Origin: a virus
Length of the DNA: 32,367 bases
Strand: one strand, 5' to 3'
Virus record (IMG/VR): IMGVR_UViG_3300009790_000043
Span: 1 to 32,367 of that record
The number at the start of each line of letters is the position of its first letter. Within the stretch, counting starts at the first letter, position 1. Positions 6,393 through 6,860 of this stretch are shown here, one piece after another. The position numbers and the translations under genes were made by a program. The notes under the pieces are model-generated. The model was not told where the DNA came from, made no database searches, and saw only the letters and a program-made list of their open reading frames with translations.

Positions 6393-6416
6393 AAACTGGT
6401 CTTATACATAGTCATG

Positions 6417-6425
6417 TGTTATAAT
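6417..6425 (+). promoter_or_regulatory. Extended -10 sigma-70 promoter
   Basis: TGTTATAAT is a TGn-TATAAT extended -10 element with no good -35 box. Initiation 6-8 nt downstream would place the first base at about 6432, almost exactly at the 5' strand of the riboswitch-like stem that starts at 6434. Confidence 0.6.
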
Positions 6426-6433
6426 GCACATAT

Positions 6434-6476
6434 CGTTCAACCTCACAAGAGGTCGCAAGTAAGCCGACTCGGAACG
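6434..6476 (+). ncRNA. Downstream-peptide (glutamine-II) riboswitch-like RNA
   Basis: P1 pairs CGTTC (6434-6438) with GAACG (6472-6476). After one A, P2 pairs ACCTC (6440-6444) with GAGGT (6449-6453) over an ACAA loop. CGCAAGTAAG and CCGACTCGG follow. This is the layout of the glnA/Downstream-peptide RNA class: CGUUCA, P2, CGnAAGUA, then GGAACG. That class binds L-glutamine and occurs in cyanobacteria and marine phage sequences. A short ORF starts 15 nt after it, as the class name implies. Assigned from memory of the consensus, not a covariance search. Confidence 0.75.
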
Positions 6477-6480
6477 GAAT

Positions 6481-6656
6481 CGTTCATCCCATGATACCTA
6501 TCCTATTAGCTACTTCTTTAACCTGCTCTGATGCACACATACTTGTCGATAAGATGAGTAAGTATAAAGTCGAAGATGAGGTTAAATCTGAAATGATTCA
6601 GATTGTAAAAGAAGAGACGGTAGGTTGTTGGGACGCAAAAGCCGACTGAAGGAACG
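6481..6656 (+). ncRNA. Second glutamine aptamer-like fold enclosing an ORF
   Basis: CGTTC (6481-6485) can pair with GAACG (6652-6656); after a single A, TCCCA (6487-6491) can pair with TGGGA (6629-6633). The 3' half CGCAAAAGCCGACT (6634-6647) then GAAGGAACG repeats the 3' half of the first aptamer (CGCAAGTAAGCCGACT, then CGGAACG). The P2 loop would be 137 nt and contain nearly all of the 52-codon ORF at 6491-6649. Sequence match is clear; folding across the ORF is inference. Confidence 0.5.
6491..6649 (+). CDS. Riboswitch-associated short peptide (downstream peptide)
   Basis: 52 aa, starting MIPILLATSLTCSDAH and ending GCWDAKAD. A short hydrophobic N-terminus is followed by a charged amphipathic helix (MSKYKVEDEVKSEMIQIVKEE). 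Two cysteines (C12, C46). Small proteins of this type are recurrent in T4-like cyanophages. The start lies directly after the first glutamine riboswitch-like RNA, and there is no strong Shine-Dalgarno sequence: the purine-rich GGAACGGA (6471-6478) belongs to the aptamer, so ligand binding could hide it. The stop codon lies within the 3' half of the second aptamer-like fold. Function unknown. Confidence 0.7.
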   Translation: MIPILLATSLTCSDAHILVDKMSKYKVEDEVKSEMIQIVKEETVGCWDAKAD

Positions 6657-6690
6657 GAGTAAAATCCCAACTACTTCAGGAGTTAATCCA

Positions 6691-6835: not shown

Positions 6836-6860
6836 GAGGGGTAGACACCCCTCTTTTTTT
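6836..6860 (+). terminator. Intrinsic terminator
   Basis: GAGGGGT (6836-6842) and ACCCCTC (6847-6853) form a perfect 7-bp stem over an AGAC loop, followed directly by seven T. It closes the DUF4278 transcription unit. Confidence 0.9.

Follow-up and report, generated by a model that had tools for sequence, protein, structure and literature searches.

In the present study, we analysed a window of 32,367 nucleotides (the whole stretch of virus record IMGVR_UViG_3300009790_000043), which was assigned to a genome fragment of a T4-like cyanophage because it comes from a virus record and its nearest matches are Kyanoviridae and related cyanophages. The region of interest holds an inverted repeat, two copies of the core motifs of a glutamine riboswitch, an open reading frame (ORF) nested in the second copy, and a DUF4278 gene followed by a terminator-like hairpin (Table 1). 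The nested ORF runs from the ATG at 6491 to the TGA at 6647-6649, and the gap from this stop to the DUF4278 start is 41 nt. A single A (6486) stands between the CGTTC of 6481-6485 and the P2b stem, whose strands (6487-6491 and 6629-6633) are separated by 137 nt, and 3' of P2b the window reads CGCAAAAGCCGACT (6634-6647) and GAAGGAACG (6648-6656), the whole of 6634-6657 being CGCAAAAGCCGACTGAAGGAACGG. All elements described in the original prediction, which had read this region as a second glutamine aptamer with a gene in its P2 loop, were found at their positions letter for letter. The nested peptide matched the PHROG 504 profile (E = 6e-13), and the nested peptides gave no Pfam match; in DUF4278, a YRG motif is present in 228 of 234 relatives. 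Rfam, when run on the whole window, reported copy 1 only (6432-6480, glutamine-I, 36.4 bits against a gathering score of 35), and a permissive search added just glutamine-II on the same copy, with 29.3 bits against 33.

Table 1. Position of the riboswitch elements, genes and signals in the window
Feature	Position	Strand	Remarks
Inverted repeat	6414-6431	+	Overlaps TATAAT-like -10 (6420-6425); ends a few bases 5' of the riboswitch
Outer P1, 5' strand CGUUC	6434-6438	+	Pairs with 6652-6656; invariant
P2a hairpin	6440-6453	+	Plain in the window; two-sided changes at all five pairs
Outer-site CGC strand	6454-6456	+	C6456 pairs long-range with G6657
Loop E, 5' strand AGUA	6458-6461	+	Copy 1 only
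P3, 5' strand AGCCGACU	6462-6469	+	Pairs with 6640-6647; two symmetric C-A/A-C mismatches
Inner helix GAACG (6472-6476)-GAAU-CGUUC (6481-6485)	6472-6485	+	Core of the permuted second site
G of the inner long-range pair	6477	+	Partner C6636
P2b, 5' strand UCCCA	6487-6491	+	Final A opens the nested AUG
Nested ORF, 52 aa, PHROG 504	6491-6649	+	Hydrophobic N-terminus, two helices, two invariant Cys
P2b, 3' strand UGGGA	6629-6633	+	Also a Trp codon of the peptide
Inner-site CGC strand	6634-6636	+	
P3, 3' strand AGCCGACU	6640-6647	+	P3 covariation
Alternative hairpin CUGAAG (6646-6651):CUUCAG (6674-6679)	6646-6679	+	Predicted; hides the DUF4278 Shine-Dalgarno AGGAG (6678-6682)
Loop E, 3' strand GAA	6648-6650	+	Overlaps stop codon UGA (6647-6649)
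Outer P1, 3' strand GAACG (6652-6656) and G6657	6652-6657	+	G6657 is the partner of C6456
DUF4278 gene, 40 aa	6691-6813	+	PF14105, 30.2 bits, cut-off 25.3
Intrinsic terminator-like hairpin and T run	6836-6860	+	After DUF4278; read from sequence

Relatives of the locus

DNA matches to the region were found in 73 phage records, 62 of which encode the peptide. From pattern scans over viral contigs, 278 distinct complete composites were obtained, a small number of which come from phage isolate records and genome contigs; the composite counts below are of distinct sequences with kinship ignored, and the diagnostic swaps are confined to a limited number of lineages. The scan patterns themselves fixed some of the motifs, and every base used in a test was free in at least one scan. 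The inserts between CGUUCA and CGC are bimodal in length (below 48 nt or at least 130 nt, with none intermediate among the 278). Written as P2a/P2b, the most frequent combination is plain/ORF (153 composites), followed by ORF/ORF (55), plain/plain (52) and ORF/plain (18), and in the two scans that left the junction unselected the second P2 carries an ORF in about 85%. The second copy of phage S-PM2 is without an ORF, and P-HM1 and P-SSM4 have ORFs in both copies. One contig (L194) was seen to carry two complete composites, P2b being plain in one and ORF-bearing in the other. Two rare loci (L217 and L265) consist of one CGUUC, the ORF and the 3' half of copy 2, with copy 1, the loop E strand AGUA and the inner hairpin missing; these are possibly deletion derivatives.

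The search of bacterial and archaeal genome contigs returned just seven matches, in contigs of marine single-cell, metagenome-assembled and isolate genomes, and so a clear host version of the composite was absent from the contigs searched. The assemblies are labelled Prochlorococcus, Dehalococcoidia, Rhodospirillaceae, Nonlabens and Euryarchaeota, and one of the matches lies on a contig of phage-genome size; all seven are probably cyanophage contigs binned with the labelled organisms. Upstream of the riboswitch, an inverted repeat of at least 6 bp was present in 166 of 243 distinct relatives, against 17 of 243 after shuffling. The repeat at 6414-6431 may be a promoter element or a 5' hairpin. 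Since its arms differ between relatives and remain complementary (TGTGTTA/TAACACA, GGTCTA/TAGACC, GGTATG/CATACC), it would appear more like a hairpin than an operator.

Pairing of the two copies

The window and all 278 composites contain the outer ligand core (CGUUCA, CGC and GGAACG), the third base of CGC being G in 19 composites, in which the partner base is swapped too. The outer long-range pair is accordingly C:G in 259 and G:C in 19 composites, with zero exceptions. Outer P1 gives no covariation of its own because its sequence is invariant; next to it, both the long-range pair and P3 do covary. For P3, 30 distinct strand pairs were counted, in which positions 1, 5 and 8 vary in a compensatory manner (AGUCG:CGACU, AGUCA:UGACU, GGACGG:CCGCCC and self-paired AGCCGACU are variants found across the copies). 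The three-way junction of P1, P2 and P3 together with loop E (AGUA/GAA) exists at the outer site only and requires the two copies to be combined. The Rfam glutamine-I alignments themselves bridge both copies, with AGUA supplied by copy 1 and GAA or AAA by copy 2; ORF-free composites score 38.4-43.6 bits in this way, and in the ORF-bearing composite of the window the model reports copy 1 alone.

The inner module reads as a circular permutation of the same ligand core, in the order GGAACGG, short loop, CGUUCA, P2b and CGC, which places two cores back to back on a shared P3, where each end receives a CGC strand and gives off a GGAACGG strand. The inner helix is GGAACG/CGTTCA in 270 and GCAACG/CGTTGA in 8 of the 278 composites with zero exceptions; in the 8, the helix is CAACG:CGUUG and the outer strands are unchanged. 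Its loop has 3-4 nt in 253 of the 278. The inner long-range pair is G:C in 266 and C:G in 12, again with zero exceptions, and all four combinations of the outer and inner swaps occur. Both sites contain the core bases given for the crystal structure of glutamine-II (PMC6698751). Moreover, a two-piece form of glutamine-II made of two separate RNAs binds glutamine in vitro (PMC6698751), which makes a ligand core split by a gene plausible. The inner module is without loop E, so that ligand binding at this predicted site is uncertain.

The second copy had originally been taken as a self-contained aptamer following the first, with the CGTTC of 6481-6485 paired to the GAACG of 6652-6656. In the alignments of relatives, compensatory changes across the copies show the two as one nested, interlocked RNA rather than tandem aptamers, and the partner of that CGTTC is 6472-6476. 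Two independent aptamers in a row, each with a P1 of its own and the second with the ORF in its P2 loop, would agree with the presence of all core motifs in each copy, with the score of copy 1 alone (36.4 bits) and of some second copies alone (about 35 bits), and most of the sequences are compatible with both readings. However, the tandem arrangement breaks a pair without compensation in 31 of the 278 composites, the nested arrangement breaking none of these diagnostic pairs in any of the 278, and the tandem one leaves the covarying P3 and the loop E split between the copies without a role. For an alignment of 50 diverse sequences, made of real segments joined with the loops and ORFs cut out, the nested structure had 98.1% of its cells paired; 15 of its pairs were changed on both sides, and 36 extra pair types were seen. 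The pairs peculiar to the tandem structure gave breaks only. The predicted stability of the tandem fold is also lower, the nested one being better by about 3-9 kcal/mol in the 25 plain relatives listed, and the tandem P1s reach an ensemble probability of 0.00-0.07 in ORF-bearing relatives. With the glutamine-II model, copy 2 alone scored 34.0 in one relative (L123) and 27-32 in the others, where at least 33 was looked for. The tandem reading is strongly disfavoured and we regard it as very improbable; copy 1 could still adopt such a fold for a short time during transcription.

The nested gene

Among 70 distinct ORF-bearing stems, pairs 3, 4 and 5 of P2b were paired in 70, 67 and 60, and the shuffle control gave lower means of 56.5, 40.5 and 33.4 (maxima 61, 51 and 45), so that the closing of P2b around the ORF, as judged across these stems, is not a matter of chance. 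The strands covary in relatives (UCUAUG..CAUAGA, UCUUAUG..CAUAAGA, UCCCA..UGGGA, UCCUUA..UAAGGA, UCCAAU..AUUGGA and CCCC..GGGG). This check on the relatives had been set beforehand, and with the pairs kept above shuffle across the ORF, one part of the original interpretation stood, namely the placing of the ORF within a P2 stem-loop of a glutamine-riboswitch core; the part that did not stand is the tandem, self-contained second aptamer. When the codons were shuffled synonymously with the protein kept, predicted P2b pairing fell from 0.76 to 0.43.

Long inserts were counted 208 times in P2b and 73 times in P2a among the 278 composites. The median dN/dS is 0.225 for the P2b ORFs and 0.166 for the P2a ORFs, values which mark the nested ORFs as real genes under purifying selection. 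Exactly two cysteines were found in 205 of 205 P2b proteins and 72 of 73 P2a proteins. AlphaFold2 gave a helical-hairpin model of the peptide with modest confidence (pLDDT 74.6), the model being small and uncertain. All but one of 278 distinct nested peptides combine exactly two cysteines with a hydrophobic N-terminus, and the two-cysteine peptides span several families (PHROG 504, 6471 and 13397), suggesting small exported, disulfide-linked helical hairpins.

The conservation of the 3' half could in principle be that of the protein only (the C-terminal WDAKAD), the likeness to an aptamer being incidental, and the peptide tail is indeed strongly conserved. Against this, the conservation runs on beyond the stop codon, and the same bases are kept in the absence of any ORF in S-PM2 and in 70 composites with plain P2b. 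In addition, the tail residue tracks the P2 partner (W, K, E, I), and one protein family terminates ahead of the element in L017 and within it in L043. Protein-only conservation was rejected on the bases kept past the stop and without an ORF, and we attach practically no probability to it; the RNA conservation that had been predicted for the 3' half held, the nested stop or the frame differing between phages. A further locus (L253) has a P2a insert of ORF length in which start and frame are lost and the 7-bp P2a is kept, and serves as a natural test of RNA pairing selected without protein.

The start and stop signals of the nested gene have fixed places in the riboswitch. In 206 of 208 P2b ORFs, the first base of the AUG is the fourth, fifth or sixth nucleotide 3' of CGUUCA, and the stop falls on the URA of loop E in 195 of 208; the P2a stops lie mostly within the P2a 3' strand or on the UAA of AAGUAA. 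Of the 208 composites with a P2b ORF, 98 have a GGAG built from the last stem base of the inner helix and its loop, against none of the 70 plain ones, and the window has GGA only, not GGAG, 5' of the nested ORF. Because this GGAG is built from the inner helix, ribosome binding and the inner ligand site would share bases. A simpler explanation is that the gene is a passenger, P2 loops tolerating long inserts in which a compact phage genome stores a gene with no regulatory interplay. P2 loop lengths do vary freely, the ORF and plain forms interchange (153/55/52/18), and one protein family is found in P2a of one phage (L057) and in P2b of others (L043 and L017), with different C-terminal ends, so that genes seem to move between P2a and P2b. 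The fixed offset of the start, the stop on loop E, the GGAG that appears only where an ORF follows and the codon order that favours P2b all speak against a mere passenger, which we consider unlikely.

Proposed switching

In the ligand-free fold of the window, P2a (0.96), the inner hairpin (0.98), P2b around the whole ORF (mean pair probability 0.95) and the Shine-Dalgarno hairpin (0.93) were predicted, and outer P1 and P3 were not formed; the mean ligand-free folds of 90 relatives agree with this. The Shine-Dalgarno hairpin competes with P3, loop E and the ligand core. Opposite the stop codon it has A-U in 83 relatives and A-C in none, and G-C in 53 and G-U in 88, and compatibility of this hairpin with the bases across relatives was thereby shown. 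It masks part of the DUF4278 Shine-Dalgarno. As the P3 end, loop E and the leading G of the outer core are all taken up by it, the hairpin should give way when ligand binds.

We read the region, with fair assurance, as one interlocked two-site glutamine riboswitch with a protein gene in a stem, and comparison of the relatives supports the nested pairing, the closing of P2 around a real gene and the compatibility of the Shine-Dalgarno hairpin. In the proposed structure, P1 of the outer site would join the CGUUC of copy 1 to the GAACG of copy 2, along with P2a, the split loop E and P3. The latter would be capped by the inner module, that is, the tight GAACG/CGUUC hairpin, then P2b looping out the 52-codon ORF, then CGC. 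Without glutamine, the hexamer containing the nested stop would pair ahead of the DUF4278 Shine-Dalgarno and keep DUF4278 off, and the nested ORF would be translatable by ribosomes that invade P2b. In the presence of glutamine, outer P1, P3 and loop E would form and free the Shine-Dalgarno, turning DUF4278 on, and the folded inner site together with P2b would restrain the nested start region, turning the ORF off. We infer here the binding of glutamine at both sites, the sense in which the switch works and the influence of translation.

Because the start and stop codons lie within aptamer elements, translation and folding compete anatomically, as had been predicted. A ribosome on the last codons would dismantle P2b, P3 and loop E, and hence peptide synthesis and ligand binding would exclude each other. 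It is plausible from this layout that DUF4278 expression reads both glutamine and translation of the peptide. The full scheme, in which the same nucleotides would serve as glutamine core and as signals of the nested gene (Shine-Dalgarno, start and stop) and the ligand picks either the secreted-type peptide or DUF4278, is offered tentatively, with a chance that we put a little short of even. Low glutamine alone may not open the nested ORF, given that P2b is well formed in the predicted ligand-free state.

The reciprocal switch is the simplest reading, and translational coupling that turns DUF4278 on is its serious rival. A ribosome terminating on the nested stop codon could unfold the Shine-Dalgarno hairpin and increase DUF4278, the opposite of simple exclusion. 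Here, finishing the nested ORF would open CUGAAG:CUUCAG for reinitiation at DUF4278, which would be on rather than off. The nested stop codon sits within the very hairpin that hides the DUF4278 Shine-Dalgarno, and the M. tuberculosis ppe2 uORF and the speF leader orf34 act positively (PMC11260477; PMC6386406). On the other hand, the same hairpin is predicted in ORF-free relatives, where a ribosome on the nested ORF cannot be the opener, and 41 nt separate stop and start; we keep coupling as a possible but rather improbable explanation.

Comparison with known systems

Among the published glutamine riboswitches, both types act as ON switches and have been linked to DUF4278 (PMC6316151). Like glutamine-I (RF01739), the composite has the CGUUCA/CGC/GGAACG core, P2, loop E (AGUA/GAA), P3 and a downstream DUF4278. 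Unlike it, P1 and loop E are split over two copies, the P2 stems hold protein genes, and P3 is capped by the permuted core, usually with an ORF, in place of the simple short P3 hairpin of RF01739. The long-range pair, G:C in glutamine-I, is usually C:G in the composites. With glutamine-II (downstream-peptide, RF01704), the composite shares the ligand core, the C:G long-range pair and a small peptide gene downstream, and differs in that copy 1 is below the gathering score (29.3 vs 33) and that the conserved 3' hairpin holding GGAACGG as a pseudoknot was not established in the composites. This hairpin was dropped in favour of P3, its candidate pairings being inconsistent between loci.

The original statement that no riboswitch was known with a peptide inside its aptamer is out of date, as the M. 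tuberculosis metE B12 riboswitch has a translated uORF (uMetE2) in the aptamer (PMC11260477). The likeness lies in an ORF inside an aptamer, with translation and ligand folding presumed exclusive; the metE uORF is poorly conserved, sits in a peripheral extension and belongs to one organism group (PMC11260477), whereas in the composites, which amount to hundreds of phage sequences, entire conserved genes sit in a core stem. As in mgtL (PMC6460261) and orf34/speF (PMC6386406), by analogy, a ribosome on a short leader ORF would decide the fold of the downstream gene, and the stop codon in loop E together with the Shine-Dalgarno hairpin gives an anatomy that allows leader-peptide attenuation. Those ORFs sense codons via stalling and are not closed in a metabolite-aptamer stem (PMC6460261; PMC6386406), whereas purifying selection acts on the nested peptide itself, whose two cysteines are fixed. 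Tandem glnA RNAs, on record since 2010 (PMC2864571), also have two core copies in a row, which in the composites interlock rather than fold separately; some of the reported tandem RNAs may be the same interlocked thing, and reported tandem glutamine riboswitches are to be reread. In the literature consulted, with few subscription journals covered, an ORF inside an aptamer was met only in the B12 case and the leader ORFs, and interlocked copies or conserved genes closed in aptamer stems were not described, so that the interlocked, gene-carrying architecture seems to be undescribed.

These findings indicate that the strands forming one riboswitch core can lie about 200 nt from each other, its stems enclosing whole genes, and that standard covariance-model searches miss such cores, Rfam detecting one copy here. 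In viruses of ocean cyanobacteria, glutamine sensing and the synthesis of a small conserved protein probably compete for the same RNA letters, which probably makes a testable case of a metabolite and a ribosome contesting the same bases. It points to a widespread cyanophage link between nitrogen status and the choice between two small proteins during infection. Other structured RNAs were seen in the neighbourhood, a manA RNA lying directly upstream of the composite in P-SSM4 (117-302 of locus L007) and a PhotoRC-II RNA near a related riboswitch in another locus (L047, 1021-1116).
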